From: a virus
Virus record (IMG/VR): IMGVR_UViG_3300028676_000003
Span: 62,001-126,000 of that record
DNA: 64,000 nucleotides
Direction: 5' to 3' (one strand)
The notes under the pieces were generated by a model. It was not told where the DNA came from, did no database searches, and saw only the letters and a program-made list of their open reading frames with translations. The translations under genes were made by a program, and so were the position numbers. The first letter of the stretch is position 1; each line of letters begins with the position of its first letter. Of this stretch, positions 3,101 through 54,981 are shown piece by piece.

Positions 3101-3442
3101 ATGAAAAAGAAATTAATAATTACGGAAAGTCAAATGACTCGTTTGAAACAATATATAGTTGAGGGCAGCGAGTCTGCAAAGTTTGTTAAGATGATGAAAG
3201 AGGAATTGGATGCCAACTATGAGGTATCTAATACATTCGTTCGTGAAGGTGGTGAATATTCTAATTCACCGATGATTAAGGTTAAGGTAGATGAGGAATT
3301 AATTACCCCTAAAGCCTTGTATGAGTACTTGAGTTACAAATACAAGAAAGGTAGAAAATTCACTGAACAAGTAATTAGGGATTGGGTAGATAACAAAATA
3401 TCTGATAACTATATGCTTTCCAAAAATGTACCATTAAATTAA
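3101..3442 (+). CDS. Hypothetical protein with tag-like N-terminus (113 aa)
   Basis: Begins MKKKLIITESQMTRLKQYIVEG. This short helix ends in I-V-E (residues 19-21) before Gly, matching the (L/I)xE cleavage consensus of T4-type prohead proteases. The rest (about 90 residues) is a small mixed alpha/beta domain with VKVDEELITPKALYEYLSYKYKKGRKFT. The start is fixed by the promoter motif 4 nt upstream. I infer a capsid-targeted cargo protein, but its biochemical role is unknown. Confidence 0.6.
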   Translation: MKKKLIITESQMTRLKQYIVEGSESAKFVKMMKEELDANYEVSNTFVREGGEYSNSPMIKVKVDEELITPKALYEYLSYKYKKGRKFTEQVIRDWVDNKISDNYMLSKNVPLN

Positions 3443-3458
3443 TCTAATAATACGAGCT

Positions 3459-3779
3459 ATGATACTTAAAGACAAAATAAGGCAAGTTTTACGAGAGCAC
3501 TATGGTGATTTCAATACTTATTTGGAACATGAGTATGAAGATAGGCTGACAGAGCAGTTATCTGTTGACGACATAGGGAACAAACAAGCTTGGGCCACAT
3601 ACAACCAAGTGATACTAGAATTAAAGAATACTCTTAAGGACATGTTAAAGGTCAAAGAGTTACAATATAAGCTTACAGAAAACACAAATCCTAATGAGGT
3701 TTGTATTGAAGTGATTGAAGGAATTAAACATCGAAGCCCTGAATTAAGCAGGCTATATGATAAGATAAAAAATTTTTAA
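3459..3779 (+). CDS. Hypothetical protein, paralogue of the gene at 3891
   Basis: 106 aa. The N-terminus MILKDKIRQVLREH resembles the LLRE tags of other genes in the window, with (L/I)xE ending at residue 13. The body WATYNQVILELKNTL and LQYKLTENTNPNEVC aligns with WETYNLVISEL and VKYRLTDGENPNEII in the next gene. The two probably arose by tandem duplication. The protein is all-helical by eye. Function unknown. Confidence 0.6.
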   Translation: MILKDKIRQVLREHYGDFNTYLEHEYEDRLTEQLSVDDIGNKQAWATYNQVILELKNTLKDMLKVKELQYKLTENTNPNEVCIEVIEGIKHRSPELSRLYDKIKNF

Positions 3780-3851
3780 TTGATTCTCAAGGGATTATCA
3801 AAGAGAGATAAAACATTAACAAAATAGTAAAGCTTAAGCGAGAGTCTGTAG

Positions 3852-3859
3852 ATATTTAT
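3852..3859 (+). promoter_or_regulatory. ATATTTAT late-type promoter motif
   Basis: GATATTTATAGTTAAATAAC; the 16-mer ATATTTATAGTTAAAT recurs at 6473 and, inverted, at 39274. Spacing to ATG 3891 is 31 nt. Confidence 0.55.
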
Positions 3860-3890
3860 AGTTAAATAACACATACTTAAATGATACGCC

Positions 3891-4232
3891 ATGAATGCTA
3901 ATAAATTTTTATTGACAGCTAATCAAGGTAATAGAACTGCACTAGATAAAGCATATAATAATCATATGAATTCTGTCTTGAATTCTTTCGACGAAGAAGA
4001 AGAGAATAGATGGGAAACGTATAATTTAGTGATAAGCGAGCTTATGTCGCAAGGTAATAAGAATTATTTCAAAGAGGTTAAATATCGTTTAACTGACGGT
4101 GAAAATCCAAATGAAATTATTCTAGATATCATTGACAGAGCAAACGACGATGCAAGTAGTCTTGTATGGTTACTTAAACGTAGAATTGAGGAATATGTTG
4201 AGGATGATTATTTTAAAAGATTTTTGGTCTAA
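3891..4232 (+). CDS. Hypothetical protein, paralogue of the gene at 3459
   Basis: 113 aa, helical and acidic (DEEEENRWETYNLV). It shares the WxTYNxVIxEL and YxLTxxxNPNE signatures with its upstream neighbour but lacks that protein's LRE-type N-terminal tag, starting MNANKFLLTANQG instead. It has its own late-type promoter motif. ATG 3891 is chosen because the ATG at 3881 leads to a stop within seven codons. No family recognised. Confidence 0.6.
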   Translation: MNANKFLLTANQGNRTALDKAYNNHMNSVLNSFDEEEENRWETYNLVISELMSQGNKNYFKEVKYRLTDGENPNEIILDIIDRANDDASSLVWLLKRRIEEYVEDDYFKRFLV

Positions 4233-4236
4233 GCTA

Positions 4237-4267
4237 TTGTCAAGTTTCTTTTTTTTGCGTATATTTG
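4237..4267 (+). promoter_or_regulatory. Bacteroidota-type promoter
   Basis: TTG at 4237-4239, 20 nt spacer, TATATTTG at 4260-4267, 19 nt before the ATG at 4287. Confidence 0.75.
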
Positions 4268-4286
4268 TATAAAGACACACAAAAGA

Positions 4287-5696
4287 ATGAAAAAAGATAT
4301 TACTGATAGAATTGTTTACTTAGCGGAGATGTTTGACGTATTTGAATGCGGAGAACAACACTTGGTAGCCAGCAAATTGCAAAGCCTAGTAGAAATAGGT
4401 TTCACACCAAGTACAATAACATCAACAAATGGAACAATCCTAGCGATAATTTCAACAAAACAGAATGAAAAAGATAGAACTCTTAAAAAAGTAAGTGTTT
4501 GTTCTGATGTTTATTCTGATATAATTGCGGCCGACCCAACTGAGAACAAGATTTATCTTCAGTGGATGCTTACTGTATTTACTCAATTGATTAAAGATGG
4601 TAAACAAACCAACATTGATGCGGCTATACGTTTTGTTGAAGAGGATTTGCCTCAGTCAAATAAGTACCTTATATTGTTTGAGGACAATAAAAGAAAAAAG
4701 AAATTTAAAGATTTATGTTTGGGTTCTTACAGTTTAAAAAATGTAAATGACCCAACAAACATTAATCAATACAAATCATTATCCCAACTATTTGATGCGG
4801 TTGACCCGTTCATTGAAAAGGACCCAAGTGCAATCGAAAGAACGCTAATGAAATTTGTAAATGCAGGTAAGGCTCTTATGCCAGTTAAGGATAGAAAGTT
4901 TACGCTTTATATTCCAAAGACTACAGAGGCCAGTACTATTTTTGCTAATTTCGCTAACTGGTGTACAGCTAGGGAAGGTAATGGTATGTTTAAAAGTTAT
5001 ACCGAAGGCCACAGAAAACCCAACGGAAAGAATTCTGACATTTATATCATTATAAACAACGATTTTTTCTTAGGGAAGTCTAAGGATGTTTTTCAGATTC
5101 ATTTTGAAACAAACCAATTAAAAGACAGCCGTAATGGACAAAACGTTAGCATCTTTGAAGATGTAATTTCAAAGAGTGAGGGTATTTCTAATTTCTTCTA
5201 TGAGGAATTATTAGGAATGGCTAAAGGTTTTAACAAAGGATTAGAAGACAACAAATACATTGATTATTTGATTAAATTCGGATTTGCTGAGAGCTTATTT
5301 GAGTTGATTGATTATACAACACCGACAATAAAATTTATGACAAGAGAAATACCAAGATTACCTGATATTAGCAAGTTTAAACAACTTGACTCACTTATCA
5401 TCATTGATGCTAAGATGGTGGATTTACATCCATCCATCGGTAGCTTGCATAATCTTGCGGTATTATCGCTAACAAATAATCGTATCACAAAGTTGCCGAA
5501 AGAGATTGGGAACTTAAAAAACTTACGTTTTTTAAACATAACTGGAAATCCTATAACGGAGATTCCAGCCAGTATTTCGCAACTTGACCCAAGCAACGGT
5601 GGGTTATTATTCCGTGTAGGAGTAAATAAAAGTGACATAGGAGAAGAAAATTATAAACGCTTAAAAGAGTTGTTACCAACAACTAAGATAGGTTAA
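4287..5696 (+). CDS. Large protein with C-terminal leucine-rich repeats
   Basis: 469 aa. Residues about 1-330 are a domain I cannot name. It contains the segment NWCTAREGNGMFKSYTEG, then a strand pattern (DIYIIINNDF) and FQIHFETNQLKDSRNGQ. Residues about 360-450 carry at least three LRR units of the LxxLxxLxLxxNxIxxLP type (LHNLAVLSLTNNRITKLP, LKNLRFLNITGNPITEIP). LRRs usually mediate protein binding, so this may recognise a host or phage protein. A perfect host-type promoter and a private terminator make it an independently expressed, probably early, gene. Confidence 0.75.
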   Translation: MKKDITDRIVYLAEMFDVFECGEQHLVASKLQSLVEIGFTPSTITSTNGTILAIISTKQNEKDRTLKKVSVCSDVYSDIIAADPTENKIYLQWMLTVFTQLIKDGKQTNIDAAIRFVEEDLPQSNKYLILFEDNKRKKKFKDLCLGSYSLKNVNDPTNINQYKSLSQLFDAVDPFIEKDPSAIERTLMKFVNAGKALMPVKDRKFTLYIPKTTEASTIFANFANWCTAREGNGMFKSYTEGHRKPNGKNSDIYIIINNDFFLGKSKDVFQIHFETNQLKDSRNGQNVSIFEDVISKSEGISNFFYEELLGMAKGFNKGLEDNKYIDYLIKFGFAESLFELIDYTTPTIKFMTREIPRLPDISKFKQLDSLIIIDAKMVDLHPSIGSLHNLAVLSLTNNRITKLPKEIGNLKNLRFLNITGNPITEIPASISQLDPSNGGLLFRVGVNKSDIGEENYKRLKELLPTTKIG

Positions 5697-5702
5697 TGAT
5701 TT

Positions 5703-5728
5703 AAAGGCTCCATTTTGGGGCCTTTTTT
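5703..5728 (+). terminator. Intrinsic terminator
   Basis: AAAGGCTCC pairs with GGGGCCTTT (one G-T pair), followed by a T run; directly after the LRR gene. Confidence 0.85.
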
Positions 5729-5749
5729 ATTTAAAACAAATATAAAATT

Positions 5750-7900: not shown

Positions 7901-8116
7901 ATGTCAGACAAAACAGTTACAAAAAAAACCGTAAAAATTAAAGAATCTCATTTAGTTGATTTAATCGACGATATCGTAAATGAAGCAGTTGCGGTTAAAA
8001 AACAGGAATGGATTAACGAACAAGCTAATCTTGAAGCTGGTAAAACAGCAATCTTAGAATCTAAGATGAAAGAATTAGAAGAAAAATTGAATAGACTTAC
8101 TGAAGGTAAGAAATAA
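7901..8116 (+). CDS. Small coiled-coil protein (71 aa)
   Basis: Starts MSDKTVTKKTVKIKESHLVDLIDDIVNE, where KIKESHLVDLIDDIV resembles the IITESQMTRLKQYIVE tag of the gene at 3101. The C-terminal half (ILESKMKELEEKLNRLTE) has heptad leucines and is probably a coiled coil. It has its own late-type motif and a terminator. It may be a small virion or head-core component; function unknown. Confidence 0.6.
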   Translation: MSDKTVTKKTVKIKESHLVDLIDDIVNEAVAVKKQEWINEQANLEAGKTAILESKMKELEEKLNRLTEGKK

Positions 8117-8227: not shown

Positions 8228-9319
8228 ATGGAAAGAGTTATACAAAAACTAGAAAGAGCTACTATACCTCTTGTATCTAGTGTCATTAAAGACGAATTTA
8301 TCGCTGCAAGTGAAACTGCTTTTGACTGTGCTTTTAACGGTACATCAACATTTTATCCTTGGAAGATGCCCGATATACCTAAAGACTTCAAGTTAGGAAT
8401 TATCGTAGGTTCTTCAGGTTCGGGGAAATCTACACTTCTTAAAGAATTTGGTACAGAAGAAGTTCCTGTTTGGGAATCTGACAAATCAATCATATCACAT
8501 TTCGAAACACCAAACGATGGAATCAACAAGCTTATGGCCGTTGGACTGAATTCTATACCGTCTTGGTACAAGCCATATCACGTATTATCCAATGGTGAAA
8601 AATTTAGAGCTGATTTAGCACGCAAATTACGCACGAACTGTGTCATAGATGAGTATACTTCCGTTGTAGATAGAAACGTGGCTAAGGCGGCTTCTGTGAG
8701 CTTATCTAAGTATGTTCAAAGACATAAGTTAAGTGGAGTTGTTTTATCGACGTGTCATCATGACATTGTTGATTGGTTGGAACCTGATTGGGTTTTGAAT
8801 ACAGATACAGGTGAATTAATTCACGGTTTTTTTTTTAAAAGACCAAGCATCGATATTGAAGTATATCGCACAACAAATGAAAGTTGGCGAATGTTTAAAG
8901 ACCATCACTATTTAACTGGAAACCATAATTCAGCTTCAAGATGCTACTTGGCTGTTTGGAACGATACCGTTGTTGGATTTGCCAGCGTAATTACTATGCC
9001 TAGCGGAACCGTTAAGAATGCGTGGCGTGGACATAGGAGTGTTGTCTTGCCTGATTTTCAGGGAATGGGAATTGGTGTGAGATTTACTGAGGCTGTTGCT
9101 CAAATTCACTTGGATGAGGGACATAAGTTTTATTCTCGTACAGCTCACCCAAAGATGATAGAGTATAAGACTGCATCACCTTTGTGGAAACCGACTAGTA
9201 AAAATAAGAAGCTAAGAAAAGATGTTACCGATGATAATACCTTTAAGAATCACGTTTACGATAATAAACGTTTATGTGGTAGCTTTGAGTATATTGGTCC
9301 TAAACAAGACCAATCTTAA
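8228..9319 (+). CDS. ABC-type ATPase fused to GNAT acetyltransferase
   Basis: 363 aa. The N-terminal half is an ABC ATPase: Walker A GSSGSGKST (residues 61-69), signature LSNGE (120-124), Walker B VIDE (139-142) followed by a D-loop-like SVVD, and the switch histidine in STCHHD (175-179). No membrane segment is present, so it is not a transporter subunit. The C-terminal half (about 215-340) has the GNAT AcCoA-binding pattern VVLPDFQGMGIGVRFTEAV. It resembles soluble ABC-GNAT fusions seen in phages, whose substrate I do not know. It has its own late-type promoter motif. The 3' end overlaps the convergent gene by 20 nt. Confidence 0.85.
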   Translation: MERVIQKLERATIPLVSSVIKDEFIAASETAFDCAFNGTSTFYPWKMPDIPKDFKLGIIVGSSGSGKSTLLKEFGTEEVPVWESDKSIISHFETPNDGINKLMAVGLNSIPSWYKPYHVLSNGEKFRADLARKLRTNCVIDEYTSVVDRNVAKAASVSLSKYVQRHKLSGVVLSTCHHDIVDWLEPDWVLNTDTGELIHGFFFKRPSIDIEVYRTTNESWRMFKDHHYLTGNHNSASRCYLAVWNDTVVGFASVITMPSGTVKNAWRGHRSVVLPDFQGMGIGVRFTEAVAQIHLDEGHKFYSRTAHPKMIEYKTASPLWKPTSKNKKLRKDVTDDNTFKNHVYDNKRLCGSFEYIGPKQDQS

Positions 9320-9810: not shown

Positions 9811-10539
9811 TTATTGGTATAGTTGAGGGTTTAGTTTTCCATATTTTCTAATGATAACACCAGCAACTGCATTGGCTTCATTTTCAATTGGACTTCCGTC
9901 TTCTCCATCTTTTCCAGCGTTTAGTAGTCTTCCTTGAATATTTTGTTGATGGTGGACCAATTCGTGAGCTATTGAACGACATACATCGATAATTGCTCTG
10001 TCTTTAACATAAATCTTGATGAATCCATCTAAGTTATAGTAAGCAGTTGTTGTTAAGTCAGGCGTTCTCTCATAGGCCAATTCAACCTTGATATCATCAT
10101 TTATTCCAAGATGTGCCTTGGCAAAGTTTATAAAGTCTGCAACTTGTCTTACATCTCTTTCATCGTGTGTTAAAAGACCTTCTCTAAGAAGACTTTTAAT
10201 CATTGGTTTATTTTCATTCATCTTAGGGTATCTAATCATATCATCTTTGAATCCAAAGTGCTTATATTGTCCTTTATTGGCTTTAAAACCAAACTTTTTA
10301 TAGAATTGAACAAGTCTGTTCTTATTTCCACCGAAATCACTTGATGGAGTAAGAGCGATAATTTGTTTATTTTTATCTGCATAGTTTATCAGGTCGGTCA
10401 TAATCTTTGAACCAACACCACTATTTCTAACGTCTTTATTTAAAATAATTTTAGATAAGATAAGACTTGTTTTGTTTTCGTAGATATCTAAACCTTGTAG
10501 ATATTCACTATATTTGTTTCTTAAAATTTCTTGTATCAT
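9811..10539 (-). CDS. GNAT-like domain fused to zinc metallopeptidase
   Basis: 242 aa. Residues 1-105 resemble a GNAT acetyltransferase (VRNSGVGSKIMTDLINYA, then VQFYKKFGFK). Residues 113-121, MIKSLLREG, match the LLRE tag found at the N-termini of other genes here. Residues about 130-242 form a peptidase-like domain with HELVH (192-196) and a candidate third ligand in ENEANAVAG (Glu221), as in minimal gluzincin or ImmA/IrrE-like proteases. The internal tag fits the (L/I)xE prohead-protease consensus, so the two halves could be separated during maturation. The promoter motif lies 5 nt upstream. Confidence 0.75.
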   Translation of the reverse strand: MIQEILRNKYSEYLQGLDIYENKTSLILSKIILNKDVRNSGVGSKIMTDLINYADKNKQIIALTPSSDFGGNKNRLVQFYKKFGFKANKGQYKHFGFKDDMIRYPKMNENKPMIKSLLREGLLTHDERDVRQVADFINFAKAHLGINDDIKVELAYERTPDLTTTAYYNLDGFIKIYVKDRAIIDVCRSIAHELVHHQQNIQGRLLNAGKDGEDGSPIENEANAVAGVIIRKYGKLNPQLYQ

Positions 10540-16870: not shown

Positions 16871-17715
16871 TTAAAGAAGAAAAATATACATTAAAGGTTG
16901 CGAGCCCTGCGCCAGCACCTGTTCCACAACCCCAAGAACCAGCACCTACTGCTGGTTTTGGTGCTTCTGAAAACCCTGAACCAACTGATAAACCATTCAA
17001 CGATGAACCGTTTGATGCTGGTGTTGAGGCCGATGAAGAAACAGACCCAAAAAGATACATTGAACAATTAACTGGAAAGCTTGGACAATCACTTAGACAA
17101 TATACGTCTAGTATTGGTCGTCCTGATTTCGACCTTGAAAAGTTCGCAATAAATTCATTATTGTCAGCTACTCATACCGCTGAAATGGATGAAAAAGATA
17201 GAGAAGATATAATAACTAAAGTTAACACAGCTGGTAACAATGATGACGATTCAGAGAATTCTGATTTTGATAGTACTGACCGTACTCCCGATAATAACGA
17301 TGGTAGTAACGATGGGGGTAATGATGAGTTTGGCGGTGATGCTGAATTTGGGAATGATAACGATGAAGAAGACTTGGAAGAAGTCCAAATATACGAAAAC
17401 GAAAGTCTTTTTCTTGAAGAGCCAGTGAGATGTAATATGTTTCAGCATGGGTCGAATGATATTTTAGATGAAACTCTTAATGAGGGCTTGATTAATCAAA
17501 AAAAAAGTAGTATCTTTGAAAAAAGATATTTAAAGTCTAAATTACAAGAAAGTTTTAATCAAGAAGAAGAAATGAAGAACAACGAAGAACCATTAACTGC
17601 ACCTGCGCCTGTCGTTAAACCTGACGTAAAGCCTGACGTGGCACCAAGTAGAAGAAATAAACCCTTCTTACCGATGCCTGAAGTGCAACCAGACCCTAAA
17701 GCTAAGAATGAGTAA
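16148..17715 (+). CDS. Virion-type protein, long form by -1 frameshift
   Basis: Shifting back one base in the A10 run (16855-16864) joins the 240-aa frame to a frame open to 17715, giving about 522 aa. The joined part reads RLVKEEKYTLKV, then a Pro/Ala linker (PAPAPVPQPQEPAPT), a helical module (RYIEQLTGKLGQSLRQY ... FAINSLLSATH), an Asp/Asn-rich acidic stretch, and LNEG and LQES sites. The first ATG in the second frame lies inside the helical module, so it is unlikely to start there. Programmed slippage, or a sequence error in the A-run, would both explain this. Confidence 0.7.
16855..16864 (+). other. A10 slippery run at a frame junction
   Basis: Zero-frame codons GTA AAA AAA AAA GAC TAG. 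The A-AAA-AAA heptamer permits -1 tandem slippage, and the run also suits transcriptional slippage. The zero-frame stop follows 4 nt after the run. Confidence 0.65.
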
Positions 17716-24476: not shown

Positions 24477-24496
24477 GTTTTTTGTCTAAAATTATA

Positions 24497-24520: not shown

Positions 24521-25282
24521 ATGCAAAATTTTGGTAAAATAAAAAATACGTTTAACGGGATTTTGTCCGAAGCTTTGGTTACTAACAATAACAAAGACAA
24601 GCAATTATTCGGTAAATACGTTAAAACAATCAAGGAAAATAAAGTATTAAGAACTCAGTTTTTGATATACAATAATATTGAAAATAAGGTAGAAGATAAC
24701 GAATTCAAAGCAAGCTTGTTCTTGCAAGAAAACCTAAACCTTTTAAACCAATTTTCAAAGAAAGAGATTTTAGAGGCTAATCAAAAGTTAGCTTCTTCTT
24801 TATCTGAAATTTCAGAGGACTGTGATAAAGCAAGCCTTTATGAAAATATTTCTACTCTAATTTTTACTGATAGAATCAGTGAAAACATTGATACGGTAAT
24901 TGATGCCACAGCTAATATCATTAAATACATAATGGAAAATAAGTCAAAAGAGGTTAATGAATCTTTTGATTTACCTACCACTATGTTGACAAGTATTATG
25001 GTTGACAAATACAATGACAAGTACTCAACTATCGATGAGTCTGATTTAAAGATTATCAAGTCTTTAATCGATTCTACCGATGAAACGAAAAAACAAGTTT
25101 ACACTGAAACAGTAAGAGAATGCATTGATTTAATCAATGAACAATATGCTGATGCTTCTCTAGAAACAAAGGAGAAACTATTGAAAGTTAAAGATAAATT
25201 GTTAAACGATAAAGCTGAAATCAATGAAGATTATTTGACTAATATTACAAAATTAGTTGAGTTAAAGAGCAGTTTACAATAA
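24521..25282 (+). CDS. Helical head-block protein (253 aa)
   Basis: Starts MQNFGKIKNTFNGILSEALV, with L-S-E (15-17) before Ala, a good prohead-protease consensus site. The rest is almost entirely helical and charged, with no Gly/Pro breaks (NLLNQFSKKEILEANQKL, SLETKEKLLKVKDKLL). Its place between portal and protease is where T4 keeps core-protein genes (gp67, gp68), so an internal core role is plausible; no sequence similarity is claimed. Confidence 0.6.
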   Translation: MQNFGKIKNTFNGILSEALVTNNNKDKQLFGKYVKTIKENKVLRTQFLIYNNIENKVEDNEFKASLFLQENLNLLNQFSKKEILEANQKLASSLSEISEDCDKASLYENISTLIFTDRISENIDTVIDATANIIKYIMENKSKEVNESFDLPTTMLTSIMVDKYNDKYSTIDESDLKIIKSLIDSTDETKKQVYTETVRECIDLINEQYADASLETKEKLLKVKDKLLNDKAEINEDYLTNITKLVELKSSLQ

Positions 25283-26455: not shown

Positions 26456-27181
26456 ATGGATATAAATTATAAAGATTTAAAGGTATTAAAACGTGGTGAA
26501 AGTGGAACAGGTTATCTTATTGAACAAGATGCTGGTTATATTTCACCTGACGAACCAAGAAATCAACCTTTCATTAACGAAATCAAGAAACTTGATGGTG
26601 GAAACAGACTAGCGATAGTTGAGCCGCTTATTGTTTTCGTTGTACTACAAAAATACGGTATTCTTAACCGTAATGGGAGAATCTATCCTGAAGCAATCTT
26701 AAGAAGACAAGACCAATTATATCAACAAGCGATTAAAGAACGTAGAGCTGTAGGTGAATTAGACCACCCTGAATCTAGTATTATTGCTGGTGACAGAATA
26801 TCTCATAACATCATTGAAACATGGTGGGAAGGACAAACTCTTATGGGTAAGATGGAGATATTGATGACTCCTGGGTTTATTAATTATGGTATTGTTTCTA
26901 CTAAAGGAGACGAAGTTGCAAATTTACTAAGAAATAGAATTAAGATTGGTGTATCTTCTAGAGGTGTTGGTTCACTTAAAGAAGGTAGAAATGGTGAGCA
27001 AATTGTTCAAGAGGATTTCGAGATTATTTGTTGGGACGTAGTAACGGCTCCATCAACTCCTGATGCTTGGATATTCAGAAGTCACGAAGAATCTAGACCT
27101 TATGTTGAGAACGTAGAAGTGAAAAAACCACTACTAAAAGAAAGCTTAAATGATGATTTGGATAAATTTTTATCTGAATAG
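26456..27181 (+). CDS. Prohead core protease (T4 gp21-like)
   Basis: 241 aa. Characteristic blocks: YGILNRNGRIYPEAIL, AVGELDHPESS with candidate catalytic His104, and IGVSSRGVGSL with candidate nucleophile Ser167 or Ser168. These match the gp21 (S77) serine protease family, which assembles inside the prohead and cuts head proteins after (L/I)xE. The C-terminus itself carries PLLKE-SLND, a probable self-processing site. It precedes the core and capsid genes in T4 order. The unusual number of possible substrates in this window is discussed in the findings. Confidence 0.93.
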   Translation: MDINYKDLKVLKRGESGTGYLIEQDAGYISPDEPRNQPFINEIKKLDGGNRLAIVEPLIVFVVLQKYGILNRNGRIYPEAILRRQDQLYQQAIKERRAVGELDHPESSIIAGDRISHNIIETWWEGQTLMGKMEILMTPGFINYGIVSTKGDEVANLLRNRIKIGVSSRGVGSLKEGRNGEQIVQEDFEIICWDVVTAPSTPDAWIFRSHEESRPYVENVEVKKPLLKESLNDDLDKFLSE

Positions 27182-27303: not shown

Positions 27304-28590
27304 ATGGCTGAAAAAAATTCAATTATAAAAGAAGCTTTATTGGATATTCAAAATATCCAAAATGCTCTTAGTGCCAATACCAAAGAAATACTTCGTGGCG
27401 TAGCTAGAGAAGAAATTGACGGTGTGGTTAAAGAATCTCTTATGAAAGAGATTTACGAAGAAGAAGATTTAGACGCTCCTGAATTTGGTGGTGATGACTT
27501 AGGTCAAGAAGCTCCAATGGATGCTCCGATAGGTGCAGATTTAGGAAGTGAAGATGATTCAGTAGCAGGTGGTTTAGGTGATATCGACGCTCCGATGGAT
27601 GGTGCCCCAATGGGTGCAGATTTAGGAATGGACTCAGTAGAGTTAGGTGGAGATGATTTGGATATGACAGCGGCATCTGATGATGAAGTAATCGCAATTT
27701 ACAAAAAATTAAGTGGCGAGGACGAAATCGAAATTGTAGGTGATGAAATTCACTTAAATATTTCAGAACCTGGGGAATACGTAGTTAAACTAGACGATTC
27801 AACAGCTCCAGCGGCAGGAGGATTTGATGCACCAATGGGTGGAGATGATTTAGGTGCTGAAGAAGGTGGAGACGAAGCTGAGTATGAAATCGAAATGGGT
27901 GATGACGAAGAAGAAACTGAAGAACCAGCATTTGGTGGTGAAGAAGGTGAATCTGATTCTGAAGACGCTCCTGATGATTTAGTAGCAGTTGGTGGTGATG
28001 AAGAAGAAAGCGACGACGAAGAGGAAGAAGAAGAGACAGAAGAATTAACAGAAGCAATTCCAGTTGGTTCAGCTCAAGCTCACAGATTACCTGCAAAGTC
28101 TTTAAAAGGAATTCCTTTAGGAGCTGGAGCAGATAACTTAAAAGAATCTCAAGCCGCAAAAAAATTAGTTTCTGAAACAGTAACAAAATATAATGCTTTA
28201 TTGACTGAAGCAAATCAACTTAAAGCTGAGAACTTAGAATTTAGAACTGCGTTAAAACACTTTAGAACAAAATTAGTTGAAACTGTATTACACAACGCTA
28301 ATTTAACTTATGTTACAACTCTTTTCTTAGAGCACTCTACAACTAAAGCGGAGAAAGATGCAATCTTGATGCGTTTTGATGAAGTAACAAGCTTAGCTGA
28401 GTCAAAAAAATTAAACAGAATTATTGAGAACGAATTGAGCCTAAGAAAGCCAATTACTGAATCAGTAGAGAATAAAATAATCAAAGGTGGAACGACAAGC
28501 ATTTCAAAACAATTAAATGAAAGCACAGCTTACGTTGACCCTTCAACAAAGAGAATCATGGATTTGATTAACAGAGTTGAAAAAAGATAA
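27304..28590 (+). CDS. Prohead core/scaffold protein (T4 gp22-like position)
   Basis: 428 aa. Helical N-terminus (NSIIKEALLDIQNIQNALS), then about 200 residues of Asp/Glu/Gly/Ala-rich low complexity. A helical C-terminal region follows (LVSETVTKYNALLTEANQLKAENLEF), with many (L/I)xE sites (LTEA, ITES, LNES). Extreme acidity, cleavable sites and position between protease and capsid protein are the pattern of T4 gp22, the scaffold degraded after assembly. Identification rests on composition and gene order, not on a conserved domain. Confidence 0.8.
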   Translation: MAEKNSIIKEALLDIQNIQNALSANTKEILRGVAREEIDGVVKESLMKEIYEEEDLDAPEFGGDDLGQEAPMDAPIGADLGSEDDSVAGGLGDIDAPMDGAPMGADLGMDSVELGGDDLDMTAASDDEVIAIYKKLSGEDEIEIVGDEIHLNISEPGEYVVKLDDSTAPAAGGFDAPMGGDDLGAEEGGDEAEYEIEMGDDEEETEEPAFGGEEGESDSEDAPDDLVAVGGDEEESDDEEEEEETEELTEAIPVGSAQAHRLPAKSLKGIPLGAGADNLKESQAAKKLVSETVTKYNALLTEANQLKAENLEFRTALKHFRTKLVETVLHNANLTYVTTLFLEHSTTKAEKDAILMRFDEVTSLAESKKLNRIIENELSLRKPITESVENKIIKGGTTSISKQLNESTAYVDPSTKRIMDLINRVEKR

Positions 28591-28625: not shown

Positions 28626-30452
28626 ATGTCACACTTATTAACATCTGGACAAGTTGGAAATATCGGATTAAACCACATGAAGGCTATCCGTAAAGAGACT
28701 CAATCTAAATGGGATTCATTAGGATTCCTTGACGGTCTTAAAGGTCACGTTAAAGAGAATATCGCTCAATTATACGAAAACCAAGCGTCAACATTATTAA
28801 CTGAAAGCACAACGACAAACTCTTCAGGTTCATTCGAAACTGTAGTTTTCCCAATCGTTCGTAGAGTTTTCTCAAAATTATTAGCTAACGATATCGTTTC
28901 TGTACAAGCTATGAACATGCCAATTGGTAAATTGTTCTACTTCGTACCAGTTACATCAAGCCGTGTGGATGCTTTAGGTAACCCTGGTTCTGATTACGCT
29001 GCAAACGGTGGTAACGGAGCTTACGCAACTCAATACTCTGCACACACAGGTATGGCGGCTCAAGGTCTTCCATCATGTGTTGTTGGTTCAGGTTGTACAC
29101 TTACTCCATTCGAGGGTAAAAACTTATACGATGCATTCTACAATGACGGTTTATTTGATAACTCAAAAGGTACTCTTACAATCGTTGCAGGTGGATATAA
29201 CGTATACACTTTAGGTATTGACGGTAAATATACAGTTGCGACTGGAGCTGCTCAATTACCAACAGCTAATGACGGTTCATTAAGAGAAGTTGTTATCGGT
29301 ATCACTGGATTCTCTCCAAACGTACACGCTAAACAAGTTATGACAGGTGCTAACGGTGACCCAATGGACACTGAATCATTCTTAGCTTCATTACACGTTC
29401 TTTCAACTAATGCAATTTTAGATAAAGATGGTAATACAATTATCGCTGCTGGTAAGGAAATTCCTTTCAGATTAGTAACTCAACAATACGGTAGAGGTAT
29501 CGTAGACTACACTAACTTAACAGATACTTCAGGTACTCTTTATGTTGCTTTAGATTTACGTCACCCTGTTGGAACATCTGCTGGTGTTATTGGTGGTGCT
29601 GGAACATCAACTTATGATGGTTACGTTGGAGCTTCTGCTTCTACAGTATCAGCGTTTACTTTCACTGCGGCTTGGGCTGAGTACGCTACATTAGAGCTTG
29701 AAACTGAAATGGGAGAGGTATCTTTCAAATTAGATGAAATCGTTGTTGCGGTTGAAGAAAGAAAATTACGTGCTACATGGTCTCCTGAGTTAGCTCAAGA
29801 CGTTAGTGCATTCCACAACATTGATGCAGAAGCTGAATTAACAGCTATGTTATCTGAGCAAGTTGCTGCGGAAATCGATAGAGAAATCTTGAGAGAGTTA
29901 CGTAAAGCTGGTGCTTGGCAATTAAGATGGGATTACAACGGTTGGAGAAAAGCTTCTACAGCGGCAAGCCCATACACACAAAAAGACTGGAACCAAACTT
30001 TAATCACTAGATTAAACCAAGTTTCTGCACAAATCCACAAGTCTACTCTTAGAGGTGGTGCTAACTTTATCGTAGTTTCTTCTGAAATCTCTGCTATCTT
30101 TGATGATTTAGAATACTTCCACGTAAGTGATGCTAACCCAGAGCAAGACCAATATAACATGGGTATCGAAAGAATCGGTTCTTTATCAGGACGTTTCCAA
30201 GTATACCGTGACCCTTATGCTCCAGCTTATTCAATTATCATTGGACACAAAGGTAAATCATTATTAGACACAGGGTATATCTATGCTCCATACGTGCCTC
30301 TTCAATTGACACCTACAATGTTTAATCCGTTTAACTTTGCGCCAGTAAAAGGTATCATGACACGTTATGCTAAAAAAGTGGTTAACAACAGATTCTACGG
30401 ACACGTAAGAGTTGACGGTGTACCTACATTCGACGTAAACGAATTAAGATAA
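28626..30452 (+). CDS. Major capsid protein (T4 gp23-like)
   Basis: 608 aa. The N-terminal segment ends in LYENQASTLLTE (48-60), then STTT. L-T-E60 matches the gp21 cleavage consensus at nearly the position where T4 gp23 is cut (after residue 65). Then VVFPIVRRVFSKLLANDIVSVQAMN, the start of the HK97-fold body, a long insertion with beta content (about 110-370), and RKLRATWSPELAQDVSAFHNIDAEAE, a strongly gp23-like block. It forms the shell hexamers. It is longer than T4 gp23 (521 aa) through the central insertion. A terminator follows. Confidence 0.95.
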   Translation: MSHLLTSGQVGNIGLNHMKAIRKETQSKWDSLGFLDGLKGHVKENIAQLYENQASTLLTESTTTNSSGSFETVVFPIVRRVFSKLLANDIVSVQAMNMPIGKLFYFVPVTSSRVDALGNPGSDYAANGGNGAYATQYSAHTGMAAQGLPSCVVGSGCTLTPFEGKNLYDAFYNDGLFDNSKGTLTIVAGGYNVYTLGIDGKYTVATGAAQLPTANDGSLREVVIGITGFSPNVHAKQVMTGANGDPMDTESFLASLHVLSTNAILDKDGNTIIAAGKEIPFRLVTQQYGRGIVDYTNLTDTSGTLYVALDLRHPVGTSAGVIGGAGTSTYDGYVGASASTVSAFTFTAAWAEYATLELETEMGEVSFKLDEIVVAVEERKLRATWSPELAQDVSAFHNIDAEAELTAMLSEQVAAEIDREILRELRKAGAWQLRWDYNGWRKASTAASPYTQKDWNQTLITRLNQVSAQIHKSTLRGGANFIVVSSEISAIFDDLEYFHVSDANPEQDQYNMGIERIGSLSGRFQVYRDPYAPAYSIIIGHKGKSLLDTGYIYAPYVPLQLTPTMFNPFNFAPVKGIMTRYAKKVVNNRFYGHVRVDGVPTFDVNELR

Positions 30453-30480: not shown

Positions 30481-30516
30481 AAAAAAAGACCCACCGATAT
30501 GGTAGGTCTTTTTTTT
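30481..30516 (+). terminator. Intrinsic terminator after the capsid gene
   Basis: AAAAAGACC and GGTCTTTTT arms form the stem, with T8 at the end. Confidence 0.8.
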
Positions 30517-30525
30517 GTTTTTAAG

Positions 30526-30533
30526 ATATTTAT
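30526..30533 (+). promoter_or_regulatory. ATATTTAT late-type promoter motif, 4-nt spacing
   Basis: GATATTTATTAATATG: the motif ends 4 nt before ATG 30538. The longer frame from ATG 30499 would start upstream of the motif. Confidence 0.55.
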
Positions 30534-30537: not shown

Positions 30538-30993
30538 ATGAAACATACAATAAAAAAACTACTTAGAGAATCTCTATTGAAAGAATCATTATTAGATAAT
30601 GATATTAAATCTTTAATAAGAGATACCAATGTTTTTGCTTCTTTTGGGAATCCATATGGGTTTAAAGAAAATAAAATAATTGGTAGAAATACTGATATAT
30701 TAGATAAGACTGTACCATATGAAGGAACTGATTTTAGAATTGCTGTAACTCCATTAGGTGACAAAAAAAAGTTAAGTATACACTTTCCACAAATTGAACA
30801 AACTTCAAGTAGAGGTGGTGGTCATGCTGGATTAAGTTTTCTATTTGATAATGATGTTGTAATAAATAAACAATTGGTTAATATGTTGCTACCAGCTGTT
30901 GATGATTTTAGAAGTCAAAATTTTACATTAAACAATGGTGTTTATCAAATAAATACAAATAATCCTAGCGAAATGAAACCTGTTAATCTTTAA
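30538..30993 (+). CDS. Tagged cargo-like protein (151 aa)
   Basis: N-terminus MKHTIKKLLRESLLKES. L-R-E (9-11) before Ser fits the prohead-protease consensus, and the first 11 residues match those of the - strand gene at 34389 (MKHIIKKLLRE) except at one position. The rest differs: a mixed alpha/beta domain with DFRIAVTPLGDKKKLSIHFPQIEQ and a Gly-rich loop (SSRGGGHAG). Start is fixed by the promoter motif. Inferred to be packaged in the head; enzymatic role unknown. Confidence 0.65.
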   Translation: MKHTIKKLLRESLLKESLLDNDIKSLIRDTNVFASFGNPYGFKENKIIGRNTDILDKTVPYEGTDFRIAVTPLGDKKKLSIHFPQIEQTSSRGGGHAGLSFLFDNDVVINKQLVNMLLPAVDDFRSQNFTLNNGVYQINTNNPSEMKPVNL

Positions 30994-31412
30994 GAAGCTA
31001 CTCGTTCGTGATATGTATGTTTGTCTCCACAAGAAGTACATTTACACTCATTTAAGTCTTTATAATCATCTAGGTTGTTGACATCTATAATATACCCAGC
31101 AAGGGTAGTTATATACGTTTCTCCTTTACAGTTAGGGTTAGGACAATATGCATGGTCCTTCTTATATTTCTTACGAAATTCTTCGACCTTCTTCTCAGTT
31201 TCTCTATGCTTGATAGCGCAGTCAATATGAACTGGTTCAACATAGATTGGACTCTTTTGATTTACATCTACTTCCTCAGAACACAGAACACATTTCATAG
31301 GTTCAGGTTCATCAATTCTAGCGAAGTATTTTCTAACAAGTCGGCCCAATTCCATATCATTAGGTTCAGCTTCGACAATTTGTCGTATGTGTTGAACGTA
31401 AGCTTTTTTCAT
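30990..31412 (-). CDS. Protein with multiple zinc-binding cysteine pairs
   Basis: 140 aa. CVLCSEEV (about 41-44) with downstream VHIDC, then CPNPNC and CKCTSCGDKHTYH form two or three Cys2 pairs, enough for two zinc ribbons or knuckles. A charged helix (RETEKKVEEFRKKYKKDH) separates them. It lies directly after a small winged-helix gene (start/stop overlap) under one host-type promoter. Probably a nucleic-acid or protein-binding regulator; target unknown. Confidence 0.65.
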   Translation of the reverse strand: MKKAYVQHIRQIVEAEPNDMELGRLVRKYFARIDEPEPMKCVLCSEEVDVNQKSPIYVEPVHIDCAIKHRETEKKVEEFRKKYKKDHAYCPNPNCKGETYITTLAGYIIDVNNLDDYKDLNECKCTSCGDKHTYHERVAS

Positions 31413-31703: not shown

Positions 31704-32333
31704 TTATTTTAAAATATTTTCCAATAAAGTGAAATCATCCATAACTCCCTTATAGTAATTATCATGAACAAACTCACCATAAGGTGTAATAAACTTGATA
31801 TTATCCAAGAAAACTCTTTGTCCAATCATCAATTGATTAACTGGATAGTGCATTTCTTCTGATAAACCAAGTACCATTTGTTTAATCCAATCGTATTCTA
31901 GTATTTGACATAAGTCAGCATCACGAATAATGCTTTGGTAAATATTCAAATCATCAACCTTAATAACGTATGGATATTGTGTTGCATAAATGATTTCTTT
32001 CATGAACTCAAAATCTAAATGAACTATTTGATATTCACTTAAGAATGTACCTAATCCAACGATTGCTTGTTCCACGTTGAAAGCATCATCTCTTCGTCCC
32101 ATAGAGTGGTTAAAATCGTGAAATAAAGCAGCCATAAGCAAAGCTTCTACCTTATCATCTTCTAACATCTTCATGAAGTCTAGAGCTTGATAACAGTTCT
32201 TAACAACAGTAAGCATATGGTTGAAGTTATGATATGGTGCATGATTTGATTTGTTATTTTCAACCAAATACTTTAAACCAAACCTAAGTGAAGGATATTG
32301 GTTTATTATGTGTAATACGTTCTTCTTATTCAT
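31704..32333 (-). CDS. HD-domain phosphohydrolase
   Basis: 209 aa from ATG 32333 (MNKKNVLHIINQYPS), which overlaps the previous stop as TAATG; the in-frame ATG at 32345 is less likely. HD signature: YHNFNHM (34-40) supplies the first His, FHDFNH (71-76) the His-Asp pair, and RDADL a downstream Asp. This is the metal site of nucleotide or cyclic-nucleotide phosphohydrolases. It could cleave nucleotides or a signalling nucleotide of the host. Co-transcribed with the small Cys protein upstream from a host-type promoter. Confidence 0.75.
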   Translation of the reverse strand: MNKKNVLHIINQYPSLRFGLKYLVENNKSNHAPYHNFNHMLTVVKNCYQALDFMKMLEDDKVEALLMAALFHDFNHSMGRRDDAFNVEQAIVGLGTFLSEYQIVHLDFEFMKEIIYATQYPYVIKVDDLNIYQSIIRDADLCQILEYDWIKQMVLGLSEEMHYPVNQLMIGQRVFLDNIKFITPYGEFVHDNYYKGVMDDFTLLENILK

Positions 32334-32578
32334 TAGCAAGTACAATTATCATTTCCACACCAACCACATTTATCCAATTCTTTTTGACGAGCATCTTCTC
32401 TAGCTTGATTCTGTGCGTCAAGAACCCATTCTTCACCGTTCCACTCCATACCTTCGTAGAAGCCACCCTTAGCGTTTGATGTAAAGAATTCTCTATTGGT
32501 CATAAGACCGTTCTTTCTATGATGGTCGTCCCAATTGGTATCGTCCTCATTGTATGCTGGGTATTTATTTTTATCCAT
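32333..32578 (-). CDS. Small protein with C-terminal Cys cluster (81 aa)
   Basis: Begins MDKNKYPAYNEDDTNWDDHHRKNG; aromatic/acidic middle with WNGEEWVLDAQNQARE. It ends KCGWCGNDNCTC, four cysteines in a C-x2-C-x4-C-x-C pattern that could bind one metal. First gene of an early unit with the HD-domain protein. Family unknown. Confidence 0.55.
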   Translation of the reverse strand: MDKNKYPAYNEDDTNWDDHHRKNGLMTNREFFTSNAKGGFYEGMEWNGEEWVLDAQNQAREDARQKELDKCGWCGNDNCTC

Positions 32579-33738: not shown

Positions 33739-34389
33739 TTAGTCATATTTTGAGAAAAATAAATCAGAACCACTCTTGAAAGCCTTGATAGGGTTGAATC
33801 CTTTCTTAATATAATTTTGTCCACGGCCAAGCATTTCTTTGAAATCATCATTGGGTTGCATCGAATAAACAGTATTATATTTTTTTATCAGCTCTTGAGT
33901 TTCAGGGTTAATTTCACTTAACCATTCCTCATATTCTTCAGGGTTTTCAAATGTGTCGTTACTACCAGTATATAATGCAACACTAAATTCTGGGTTCCAT
34001 TTACCACTGGCATCAAATGGTGCAATGTTTGTTTTATTAACATCAGGTCTATCATAAAATTTAACCCATACATTCAATGCTTCACTTCTAACGTCACCTT
34101 TTCTAGCTGGCATAAGTCCTTTACCCTTCGTACTAGCCATCATCATAGCCATTTCGTAGATATAAGGCCCGAAACCATCTTCTGCGGCCACTTTATCCAC
34201 ATCGAAATTTTGACCTCTTAGAGAGGCTGAAATCACGCCATATGATTTATTGGTCATAGGGTCATATAAGACAAGACTTATCCTGTTATCCTTTTGGAAT
34301 AACGCAGTTTCTATTGGTAGATTTTTTGATGTAAGCATAGTTTCTCCTAATAGATTTTCTCTAAGTAATTTTTTAATTATATGTTTCAT
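33739..34389 (-). CDS. Tagged cargo-like protein (216 aa)
   Basis: N-terminus MKHIIKKLLRENLLGE, nearly the same as that of the gene at 30538, with L-R-E ending at residue 11. The body contains VYDPM-like strands and the block DGFGPYIYEMAMMMAST, GLMPARKGDVRSEAL and VWVKFYDRPDV. That block resembles a motif I associate with hypothetical proteins of large phages, possibly GNAT-related, without a proven activity. It follows the structural gene at 34392 by 2 nt and shares its late-type promoter. Inferred head cargo. Confidence 0.65.
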   Translation of the reverse strand: MKHIIKKLLRENLLGETMLTSKNLPIETALFQKDNRISLVLYDPMTNKSYGVISASLRGQNFDVDKVAAEDGFGPYIYEMAMMMASTKGKGLMPARKGDVRSEALNVWVKFYDRPDVNKTNIAPFDASGKWNPEFSVALYTGSNDTFENPEEYEEWLSEINPETQELIKKYNTVYSMQPNDDFKEMLGRGQNYIKKGFNPIKAFKSGSDLFFSKYD

Positions 34390-52010: not shown

Positions 52011-52023
52011 ATAAATTTTAAAA

Positions 52024-52464
52024 TTATTCACCTAAAACTCTAGTTTGTCCGAATCCGTGTTTAAACTCATCTTTAAATCTAACTGCATCCATTTTTGGTT
52101 CAGGGTCAGCTTTTAGTTTAGGTTCATCACTTGATTTAAGAACACTCAACAAATCAGCTTTTAATGATTTGATTGTATCTTCAAATTGTTTCTTTTGATT
52201 AGAAAGAATATTCTTGATTTGGTCTTCTTCAGGTGTTTTGTACTTATCATCAACTCTGTCCATAAGTTCTTTGATGTGAGATGTTTTTGTTGTATCATCT
52301 AAATCAATTGTATACTTAGGTTTAACGTTGTCAGTTAACAATTGGTTAACTCCAACAAATTTTTCAGGTGCTTTTTTCTCACCATCACTAGTTGAATTTG
52401 CTTTATCCTCTTTCAAGGCTTTAGCTAGGAATTCGAAAACTAGAATTAAATCATCTTGTTTCAT
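52024..52464 (-). CDS. Hypothetical helical protein (146 aa)
   Basis: Begins MKQDDLILVFEFLAKALKEDK. A Ser/Gly/Lys linker (NSTSDGEKKAPEKF) leads to a beta segment (KYTIDLDDTT), then a coiled coil (QIKNILSNQKKQFEDTIKSLKADLLSVL) and a polar tail. Four nt downstream of a glycosyltransferase gene, so probably co-transcribed with it. No family recognised. Confidence 0.55.
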   Translation of the reverse strand: MKQDDLILVFEFLAKALKEDKANSTSDGEKKAPEKFVGVNQLLTDNVKPKYTIDLDDTTKTSHIKELMDRVDDKYKTPEEDQIKNILSNQKKQFEDTIKSLKADLLSVLKSSDEPKLKADPEPKMDAVRFKDEFKHGFGQTRVLGE

Positions 52465-52467
52465 AAT

Positions 52468-53694
52468 TTATTTTTTTAAAAGGCTCAAGTATAAGTCTCT
52501 TCTTTGTTCAGTTACTTTATCCATAGAATATGTGTCTTTAACTGTTTCGAAAAGATTTTCTTGAAGTGTTGTTATAATTTCAGGATTATTGATTAATTTC
52601 TTAATCGCAGTATACCAATCCTTGTTATTTTTTTTGCTGTCAATCAAGATACCATTTGCTGTTGTATCAAAACCACCACCATATTGTATAGCGTTTTTAA
52701 GGTCAATTTGGTATGGCCCGAAATCTTGTGCAATTAATGCTTTTTTATGGAAACCAGCTTCAATAACCTTCAACTGACTCTTAACCTTGTTGAATACGTT
52801 TTCTTCAAGTGGTGCCAAAGAAATATCAAATAAGTTATAGTTTGTTGCATATGTTGAGATTGGTTTTGTCCAAACTCTACGGTATGCTTCATTGGTAGTA
52901 TCAAATTCTTGGTCTTGCGTGAATTTTAACAAATAATTTTTATATTCAGGGCTAACAGTAGAATAGTTGTCTGTAAAGATTTGCTCATAACGGAACCAAA
53001 CACTTTCTTTTGGTGTAATTTGTCTAGTTGTTTGTTGCTTAGTAATACTATCAATTGTTGTGTGTGTTCCTCTAACATCAAATCCGCAAAGTACAAATTG
53101 TACCTTATCTAGTAAATTATCAGCTCTTAGTTTACCAACAACTCCTTGAAGGATTTCTAAATCTTTTAAGTGAGATGAACCACCTAACCAACCAATTCTG
53201 ATTCTATCAGAAGGTTCAACGTTAGAAATAAATTGTTTTTCTTTAGGGTCGATAGCATTAGGTAAAACGTAAACATTTTTGTTTACTTTTCTAATTTCAT
53301 CAGCGAAGAATGGTGTTGTTGTTGTAACATTTCTAGCAGAACGAATATTATCAAGAATCTTTTTATCTAATTCAGCATTTTTAATAAGGTGATAAGCAGG
53401 GTGGTGTAACCCAGGAGCCCAATAATCATCCAAATCCATAATCGTTACAATTCCAAGACCGTCTAATTTTTTCAATAGATTTTCCATCTGCTCATAAGAA
53501 CCTAATGCTCTATGGTAGTGAATAATATCATATTGTTTTAAGAAAACGTCATCATCCAAGTTTATATCATATTCGATATCGATGTGAAATTCATCAGGAT
53601 ATTTATTTTCTAATGCAATGTGTGGGTTAGTACTTCTGTAGTAAGAAACACCTGTTCTATCGCTAGGAACTACTAGCACTTTTATTTTTTTCAT
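52468..53694 (-). CDS. GT4-type glycosyltransferase
   Basis: 408 aa. GT-B fold: KVLVVPSDRTGVSYYRSTNPHIAL, YDIIHYHRALGSYEQM, IVTIMDLDDYWAPGLHHPAYH, VTTTTPFFADEIRKVNKNVYVLPNAIDP, and IRIGWLGGSSHLKDLEIL at the start of the C-terminal half. It lacks the standard E-x7-E spacing but keeps the SLAPLEENVFNKVKSQLKVIEAG segment there. Separate from the main glycosyltransferase block. Only a -7 box (53728-53735) without a clear -33 box is seen upstream. Confidence 0.82.
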   Translation of the reverse strand: MKKIKVLVVPSDRTGVSYYRSTNPHIALENKYPDEFHIDIEYDINLDDDVFLKQYDIIHYHRALGSYEQMENLLKKLDGLGIVTIMDLDDYWAPGLHHPAYHLIKNAELDKKILDNIRSARNVTTTTPFFADEIRKVNKNVYVLPNAIDPKEKQFISNVEPSDRIRIGWLGGSSHLKDLEILQGVVGKLRADNLLDKVQFVLCGFDVRGTHTTIDSITKQQTTRQITPKESVWFRYEQIFTDNYSTVSPEYKNYLLKFTQDQEFDTTNEAYRRVWTKPISTYATNYNLFDISLAPLEENVFNKVKSQLKVIEAGFHKKALIAQDFGPYQIDLKNAIQYGGGFDTTANGILIDSKKNNKDWYTAIKKLINNPEIITTLQENLFETVKDTYSMDKVTEQRRDLYLSLLKK

Positions 53695-53727
53695 ATTAAA
53701 TTTTTTAAAACTATTTTATAAGTAAAA

Positions 53728-53735
53728 CAAATATA
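53728..53735 (-). promoter_or_regulatory. Possible host-type -7 box (- strand)
   Basis: Reads TATATTTG 33 nt before the start at 53694, but the -33 position has AAA on the + strand (TTT) rather than TTG; weak candidate. Confidence 0.3.
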
Positions 53736-53757
53736 TCTTTATTAAAATATTAGTAAA

Positions 53758-53786
53758 TAAAAAAGGAGCCTAAATAGCTCCTTTTT
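53758..53786 (-). terminator. Intrinsic terminator (- strand)
   Basis: AAAAAGGAGC pairs with GCTCCTTTTT and is followed by TTATT, after the gene ending at 53797. Confidence 0.85.
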
Positions 53787-53796
53787 GTTAATTATT

Positions 53797-54429
53797 TTAA
53801 ATTGTTTTCTTTTTCGTTGGGATTATTCCTTCTTTTATCAGCGTAGTAATTGTTTTTTTAATTGTTTCTTCTGTTAAGGTTTTGTCATAAATCTGTTTAA
53901 AAAACGTTGAAATACCTTCATTTATCATATCTTTAAGTTCTGTCTTGCTGATAGTTATCATTTCTGAATTCCCTCTTGGTTGTTGAATGTTCTCTCTTAT
54001 CGGCTGTTGTCTTGGTGGCAGAGCCTGTGGAGCTTGTTTTGTATCATTTAAATTCTTACGAGTCATTCTAGCAATCTGTTCCACTGAAACACCACCAGTC
54101 ATACTTACTTGCGGAATTGGTTTAGCTATCATAATTGCTTTGATTGCATCAGGCAATCTAGAATTCTGTACCATTTCAGCTGTATAATCAGTAGGTGCTT
54201 GATATTCTGTTTCGTTAGGGTTACTTGGTAAATAACTTTCATAAACAGGTTCTCTCTCATCATTTTCATTGTAAAATCCTGAATCATAGATATTACTATA
54301 AGATTCATTCATGCTTTCTCTCCTAGTAGGAGTTGGCATGTCACCCTCGACCTTTTGCATAACCTGTTTTGATTTGGCTAAAAGTCCTTGTAGAGCGGAT
54401 AAATTTACTGGTTGTGGCATTCCATCCAT
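53797..54429 (-). CDS. Virion-type hypothetical protein (210 aa)
   Basis: Begins MDGMPQPVNLSALQGLLAKSK. The middle is disordered and rich in Pro/Gln/Asn, with MNES, INEG and (L/I)xE-like sites. The C-terminal part, MITISKTELKDMINEGISTFFKQIY, resembles the ITESQ/IKESH helices found at 3101 and 7901. Last gene of a late operon of small proteins. Probably a virion-internal or tail-assembly protein; function unknown. Confidence 0.55.
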   Translation of the reverse strand: MDGMPQPVNLSALQGLLAKSKQVMQKVEGDMPTPTRRESMNESYSNIYDSGFYNENDEREPVYESYLPSNPNETEYQAPTDYTAEMVQNSRLPDAIKAIMIAKPIPQVSMTGGVSVEQIARMTRKNLNDTKQAPQALPPRQQPIRENIQQPRGNSEMITISKTELKDMINEGISTFFKQIYDKTLTEETIKKTITTLIKEGIIPTKKKTI

Positions 54430-54435
54430 ATTATT

Positions 54436-54981
54436 TTATGTATTAAGTTCATTATTTGTAGCTTGAGGCTGTTGTGGTGCCTGTTGCTGTTGTGTTGGTG
54501 CTGGCGGTTGAGGCGCAGGTTCCGTTGGTTTTTGATTGATATCGCTTCTTTTACGATTAAATTTATTAGGGTCTACAATCTTGTAAACAACACTAAATGA
54601 ATCATCACCCATTTGATTAAATGGTGGAATACTAGCATCATAATCAGAAACTGGATTATACCATTTCATGTTGGTAGGTAACCAAGACTCAATTCTATCA
54701 AGTCTAAAGATTTTCCAACCATTTGATACTGTTTTGGTACCACCATCAATTTGGTATGCTCTGATTGCATCATTACCACCGTGTGTTTTACCGTAAACAT
54801 AAACTTGGATATATCGTTTACTTGGAACGCTTTGTCCTTCGTCACGATATGTAATATTTACGTTATATAATCCATCTATTGCGGCTCCAACACTATCCGT
54901 ATCTACTCCTTCAACTAACAAGCCTAACGCTTTCTGTGTTTCTTCAAGTATAACTTGTTCGAATAAATTGTAAAGCTTCAT
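54436..54981 (-). CDS. WYL-like domain protein with tag-like N-terminus (181 aa)
   Basis: N-terminus MKLYNLFEQVILEETQKALGLLVEG contains I-L-E (11-13) and L-V-E before Gly (22-25), both prohead-protease-like. Residues about 32-115 follow the WYL pattern: AIDGLYNVNITYRDEG, SKRYIQVYVYGKTHGGNDAIRAYQI, NGWKIFRLDRIESWLP. WYL domains bind nucleic acids or ligands in bacterial regulators. The tail is a Pro/Gln-rich disordered segment (PAPQPPAPTQQQQAPQQPQ). Inferred packaged regulator. Confidence 0.65.
   Translation of the reverse strand: MKLYNLFEQVILEETQKALGLLVEGVDTDSVGAAIDGLYNVNITYRDEGQSVPSKRYIQVYVYGKTHGGNDAIRAYQIDGGTKTVSNGWKIFRLDRIESWLPTNMKWYNPVSDYDASIPPFNQMGDDSFSVVYKIVDPNKFNRKRSDINQKPTEPAPQPPAPTQQQQAPQQPQATNNELNT

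Follow-up and report, generated by a model that had tools for sequence, protein, structure and literature searches.

Mullaney and Black reportedly described, in 1996, the capsid-targeting sequence of the phage T4 internal proteins IPI, IPII, IPIII and Alt. A ten-residue segment of IPIII is sufficient for targeting, IPIII affects head assembly, and Alt is cleaved at its C-terminus as well as at its N-terminus (PMC9026906). The T4 internal proteins are diverse defence proteins in which only the targeting sequence is conserved (PMC3012670), and gp21 removes the N-terminal propeptides of gp24, Alt and the internal proteins (PMC5694885). T4 gp24 starts MAKINELLRE↓STTT, and IPII and IPIII start MKTYQEFIAE↓A (here and below, the arrow marks an actual or predicted cut).

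We analyzed bases 62001-126000 of a 368,549-base IMG/VR virus record from a T4-like phage; this 64,000-nucleotide stretch is the window. The original prediction held that unrelated proteins encoded in the window share short N-terminal tags that bring them into the phage head and are then removed by the prohead protease. All six N-termini that it listed (starting at 3101, 3459, 24521, 30538, 34389 and 54981) are present.

The phage and its head genes

As in T4, the head genes of the window run from the terminase and the portal through the core protein (24521), small ORFs and the S77 protease (26456) to the scaffold (27304) and the Gp23 capsid protein (28626). Coordinates of these and the other features are collected in Table 1.

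Table 1. Features of the window, in window coordinates.
Feature	Position	Strand	Details
Element [AG]ATATTTAT	3088..3096	+	4 nt before ATG of 3101 gene
Class-B tagged protein	3101..3442	+	tag MKKKLIITESQMTRLKQYIVE↓G (3101-3163); class-B family test
Class-A tagged protein	3459..3779	+	tag MILKDKIRQVLRE↓H (3459-3497), matrix score 20.1
Small protein, probable class-B-like tag	7901..8116	+	...DIVNE↓A; N-terminus conserved in three relative genomes
GNAT - internal tag - HExxH peptidase fusion	9811..10539	-	tag NE↓NKPMIKSLLRE↓G (10180-10212), score 28
Head-core protein, gp67/gp68 position	24521..25282	+	T4 gene order; 55-row alignment
gp21-type prohead protease (Peptidase S77), predicted cutter	26456..27181	+	PF03420 1.2e-24; phrog_207 5.3e-39; T4 gp21
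Scaffold/core protein, gp22 position	27304..28590	+	flanked by the protease and capsid genes, as in T4
Major capsid protein (Gp23)	28626..30452	+	PF07068 2.7e-70
Element [AG]ATATTTAT	30525..30533	+	4 nt before ATG of 30538 gene
Class-A tagged cargo	30538..30993	+	tag MKHTIKKLLRE↓S (30538-30570), matrix score 30.5; second site LLKE↓S
HD-type phosphohydrolase, untagged	31704..32345	-	PDEase_I 1.3e-05; natural tag-minus control
Class-A tagged cargo	33739..34389	-	tag MKHIIKKLLRE↓N (34357-34389), matrix score 33.7; second site LLGE↓T
Class-C tagged protein	54436..54981	-	MKLYNLFEQVILE...LLVE↓G (54910-54981)

The window does encode a gp21-type protease, as had been predicted; it aligns with T4 gp21 (PDB 5jbl) at 4.1e-16, including the GELDHP and GVSSRG blocks. 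The predicted LTE↓S at residue 60 of the capsid protein is also confirmed, at the end of a propeptide (28626-28805) that finishes LLTE↓S, and E60 is kept in 37/38 aligned rows while the middle residue of the motif is T, S, N, A or K. The cut motif is conserved in the core protein of the clade too. The 24521 protein has a propeptide-like MQNFGKIKNTFNGILSE↓A (24521-24571), with E17 in 54/55 aligned rows of its family and G, S, A or N at P1'. This protein had been counted among the cargo, but its place at the T4 gp67/gp68 position makes it a core protein. The scaffold N-terminus has I(I/L)xEA, and its homologues have SILEEA. We also noted that apparent homologues (L077 and L097) of a head-cluster protein at 17161-17715 have an internal tag-like segment (NIIKNMLRE and NQIKQMLKE).

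Among annotated phages, the capsid protein is closest to huge-phage records without annotation and to the cultured Flavobacterium phage vB_FspM_immuto (immuto; host Flavobacterium sp. LMO8), with 42% identity. Judging by immuto and by published bS21-encoding phages (PMC9723584), this clade probably infects Bacteroidota. A tie of this genome itself to the published Bacteroidetes phage clades through bS21 was rejected: its record lacks bS21, and G000, G001, G003 and G010 have no S21 match. Among the class-B contigs described below, G020 and G024 have S21 matches above the cut-off and G022 just below it. By our matrix, immuto has zero class-A tags and only looser tag-like N-termini. These N-termini are on its genes 175-191, and just upstream of its terminase (MW353176, 102250-116487; L222) is a cluster with the tag-like starts MKKSELVKLIKEE, MKKSQLRQIIKEA, MRLLELLREA and MKKLIRIVEA.

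A family of tags on unrelated proteins

The class-A tag is an N-terminal stretch of 11 residues, MKxLIKKLLRE↓, and we counted N-termini that scored at least 10 with a position-specific matrix trained on relatives. A genome-wide search for such a pattern had been proposed with the original prediction; in the 368-kb genome it gives 6 N-termini, whereas a shuffled genome is expected to give 0.12. The counts in three relative genomes are 9, 14 and 9, and the rate at N-termini is 20-31 times that at internal positions. Beyond those in Table 1, the genome carries METKSLIKKLLHE (genome position 273786), MNIKQRLREVLLE (310822), MEKNIIKEKLRE (359039) and, near 132.6 kb, a weaker tag, MKKFIKDKIRE.

In related viral contigs, gathered from loci around the protease and from a DNA-pattern scan of viral contigs (at least 119 stretches), class-A tags are found on at least 172 ORFs in at least 62 families of unrelated bodies. 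Aligned with each other, these ORFs have only MKxLIKKLLRExL in common, with the E invariant, and among the matches listed the E is at 11 residues in 53 of the 62 families. Bacterial and archaeal genomes totalling 257 Gb contained nine scattered matches to the same DNA pattern, at unrelated cellular protein starts or in very short frames. The shuffles, the internal-position controls and this cellular-genome scan rule out a chance origin of the tags. A literature search for the string IKKLLRE found no paper.

Class B (KxIITExQ...) was searched with the pattern MKKxIITExQ only, leaving the (L/I)xE motif out of the search, which yielded 91 stretches from 29 families. Of these families, 26 have [ILVM]xE at residues 13-28, compared with 5, 7 and 6 in control windows (Fisher 3e-11). 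At looser N-termini, an (L/I)xE within 30 residues has by itself no significance; homologues conserve the motif. Short tags on unrelated proteins, as originally proposed, are found in both classes.

The 30538 protein begins at the second Met of the ORF at 30499, a start backed by relatives, and its body had no homologues outside its own genome among the loci examined. In a structure model of the 34389 protein, the body is folded (pLDDT about 90) and the tag lies apart from it at below 50. The best Foldseek matches to this body are mostly GNATs, so we consider the fold weakly GNAT-like, and since none is below E 0.001 we rejected a firm GNAT assignment. The tag of the 3459 protein is kept in orthologues of three other genomes. 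All seven members of the 3101 family conserve the E, while the middle residue varies (YIVE, RLVE, FISE, ILAE, ILSE, LLNE and VLSE). Homologues of the 54981 protein have MKLYNIFEEVILEE...LISE↓G and MKLYNIYQNIILEE...LLE↓A, and its family has VILE...LLVE↓G. The earlier description of this protein as a WYL-like regulator was rejected because PF13280 scores 14.8 bits against a cut-off of 21.8 (E 0.029) and the homologue L232 has no match.

Several other proteins of the window deserve mention. A small zinc-ribbon-like protein (30990-31412, minus strand) has a tag-like start, HIRQIVE↓A, and its L058 relative starts ...IKKIVLE↓T. There is a phage protein with leucine-rich repeats at 4287-5696 (LRR_14 1.9e-11), a fusion of a P-loop ATPase domain with a GNAT domain at 8228-9319, and, at 56433-59066 and 60962-63367, long fibre-like proteins with SHAEG/ASG repeats like trimeric-adhesin head repeats.

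Tag position, cargo and start element

Homologous bodies can exchange one tag class for another or lose the tag. Homologues of the 34389 body have class-A or class-C tags, and a further body has MKHTIKQLLRE or MKIKITEEQYKRTMNALLE as alternative starts, while its immuto version starts MRLLELLRE; this start, MRLLELLRE↓A, is that of immuto gene 188, a homologue of class-A and class-B tagged cargo. This genome encodes untagged forms of a CCA enzyme, an RNA kinase and an HD protein whose counterparts in relatives bear tags; the untagged 31704-32345 protein has 53% identity over 205 aa with its class-A tagged homologue L061. In structure models, the tag is low-confidence sequence outside the folded bodies.

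The metallopeptidase fusion at 9811-10539 had been listed as tagged cargo, and it does carry a tag, but internally rather than at the N-terminus. The linker is a low-confidence segment in its model, and the fusion is predicted to be a two-cargo polyprotein; its peptidase domain also occurs standalone with an N-terminal tag (L106, L126, L140 and L209). Just upstream of internal and C-terminal tags we found an xxE cleavage-like site in 17/19 cases (background 0.099), a count from which four poor matches had been excluded by eye beforehand and which includes several homologous rows, so the independent contexts number about nine. With a cut site on each side of a between-domain or C-terminal tag, release of cargo from a polyprotein would be possible. 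In L195, L214, L235, L244 and L262 the tag is at the extreme C-terminus with an xxE site before it, for example INE↓NNKILIKRLIKENLNK at the end of the frame.

A short basic amphipathic helix, as in the tag consensus, is generally compatible with membrane or protein binding, so one could suppose that the tag is a localization or interaction signal with no link to the head (for the membrane, the replication compartment, the ribosome or degradation). We regard this as quite improbable: the invariant residue is the Glu of the gp21 motif, otherwise unrelated tag classes have only that ending in common, it recurs in gp24, a head protein of T4, and internal copies are flanked by a cut-like site on either side.

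The class-A families listed include ART-PolyVal (3), GNAT (3) and GP88 (2) domains, along with CCA/poly(A) polymerase, polynucleotide kinase, HD, pterin dehydratase, kinase-like proteins and many unknowns. The cargo at genome position 310822 is 2'-5' RNA ligase/Acb1-like (Acb1 7.2e-07), and one class-B protein resembles ART but scores slightly below the curated cut-off. Domain classes such as ART, GNAT and metallopeptidase have been proposed to be delivered in virions (PMC5512222), and the cargo fits these classes, consistent with injection into the host. A competing explanation is that the tag, as a docking helix, brings proteins to the core or into the virion, where they serve as structural or assembly factors of the head, with no injection. 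The core protein and the scaffold have similar removable-looking N-termini, and T4 IPIII affects head assembly, as would be expected from this. We nevertheless think it unlikely, since the cargo varies strongly among close relatives and its ART, CCA, RNA kinase, Acb1-like and kinase domains fit delivery better.

The protease accompanies the tags. S77 is present in 23/23 tag-bearing contigs longer than 80 kb with a well-covered Gp23, although nine of these had been retrieved, and for that reason selected, by way of the protease. In class B, S77 is present in each of the 12 examined contigs with Gp23, and the other four have neither. Among class-A contigs longer than 100 kb, S77 is found in 11/18 (nine fetched through the protease, two not); six of the remaining seven also lack Gp23, and in one Gp23 is cut by the contig end. 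In total, eleven tagged contigs longer than 80 kb lack S77, and these are probably fragments because Gp23 is missing too in ten of them and cut by the contig end in the other. In T4-like phages S77 and Gp23 co-occur anyway, and given this, and that some contigs were found via the protease, the association between S77 and tags lends weak support by itself.

The element [AG]ATATTTAT occurs genome-wide, in the window also at 24496, and from its position before structural genes it is a putative late promoter. Its distance to the ATG is bimodal, either 4-6 nt, where tagged genes are enriched, or 12-18 nt, where we find the others, including structural genes. Tagged ORFs make up 68/125 at 4-6 nt and 48/253 at 12-18 nt (Fisher 6e-12, with tag class assigned by loose patterns and related sequences counted). 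The two spacings suggest late promoters and possibly leaderless cargo mRNAs. That the element precedes many tagged starts by exactly 4 nt might suggest that the tag is a by-product of shared DNA, such as a repeated promoter/start module or a recombination site. This is very improbable, because synonymous codons vary freely inside the tag, indicating that selection acts on the protein, and because classes A, B and C differ in DNA yet have the same ending and spacing and tag copies are also found inside and at the end of ORFs. Based on the codon variation, we rejected a DNA-level repeat as the source of the tags.

Proposed mechanism and comparison with known systems

We believe that the tags are very probably interchangeable capsid-targeting sequences, which the prohead protease would cut off. 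Every sequence-level prediction of this that could be tested was borne out, namely N-terminal enrichment, unrelated bodies, class interchange, a conserved Glu at the cut, S77 co-occurrence, the T4 gp24 match and injected-effector-like cargo; what fell away from the original prediction is 24521 as cargo and the WYL assignment of 54981. A tagged protein would be made late in infection, and its short basic amphipathic helix would dock on the scaffold core of the assembling prohead. Once the shell closes, the S77 (gp21-type) protease would cut after the Glu of (L/I)xE and the tag peptide would be lost, and the freed cargo would stay in the head with the DNA and reach the next host. What the sequences show directly is the tags, their modularity, the conserved cut motif and the co-occurrence with the protease; the docking, the cleavage, the packaging and the injection are inferred. 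At least three interchangeable classes (A, MKxLIKKLLRE↓; B, KxIITExQxxxL...(L/I)xE↓; C, MKxxxIFxxxLxE↓) are found on many unrelated bodies, including predicted effectors and RNA-repair or counter-defence enzymes.

We slightly favor a broader view, in which capsid targeting has become a means of general delivery in a clade of jumbo T4-like phages whose hosts are probably Bacteroidota, with swappable tag classes, tags excisable anywhere, including between polyprotein domains, and in many cases a late start module of their own 4 nt ahead of the ATG, together carrying a changing load of injected counter-defence and host-takeover enzymes. If this is true, the tag reveals which phage proteins of unknown function reach the host at the first moment of infection, and dozens of new injected-effector candidates (ADP-ribosyltransferases, RNA-repair proteins, Acb1-like proteins and many unknowns) follow from sequence alone. 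There would also be new modular tags for loading proteins into phage heads, and one proteomics experiment could test what these phages inject.

The capsid-targeting interpretation is well supported by sequence and comparison, and the system is an expanded version of the known T4 mechanism. As in T4 IPI, IPII, IPIII and Alt, about ten N-terminal residues ending in (I/L)xE precede unrelated bodies, and a gp21-type protease and a gp23-type capsid protein are encoded, but the consensus is MKxLIKKLLRE here and MKTYQEFIAE in T4, and this clade has several interchangeable classes, far more cargo families, and internal and C-terminal copies. The T4 gp24 propeptide has the same LLRE↓S end and a similar length, but in T4 it is on one shell protein and not on cargo. 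DarB of phage P1 likewise has a short N-terminal signal, which is enough to bring a reporter into the phage head, although the P1 Dar proteins have no shared consensus and P1 has no T4-type scaffold (PMC9024508). The ejection proteins of SPN3US and phiKZ have comparable head-interior N-termini, which in those phages are removed by the prohead protease, but their propeptides are mostly longer than 100 residues, unlike the short tags here (PMC5694885). Polyvalent proteins share with this set the ART, GNAT and metallopeptidase domains and a predicted carriage in virions, whereas the proteins we describe mostly have a single domain behind a removable tag that they have in common, or are small fusions tagged between domains (PMC5512222).
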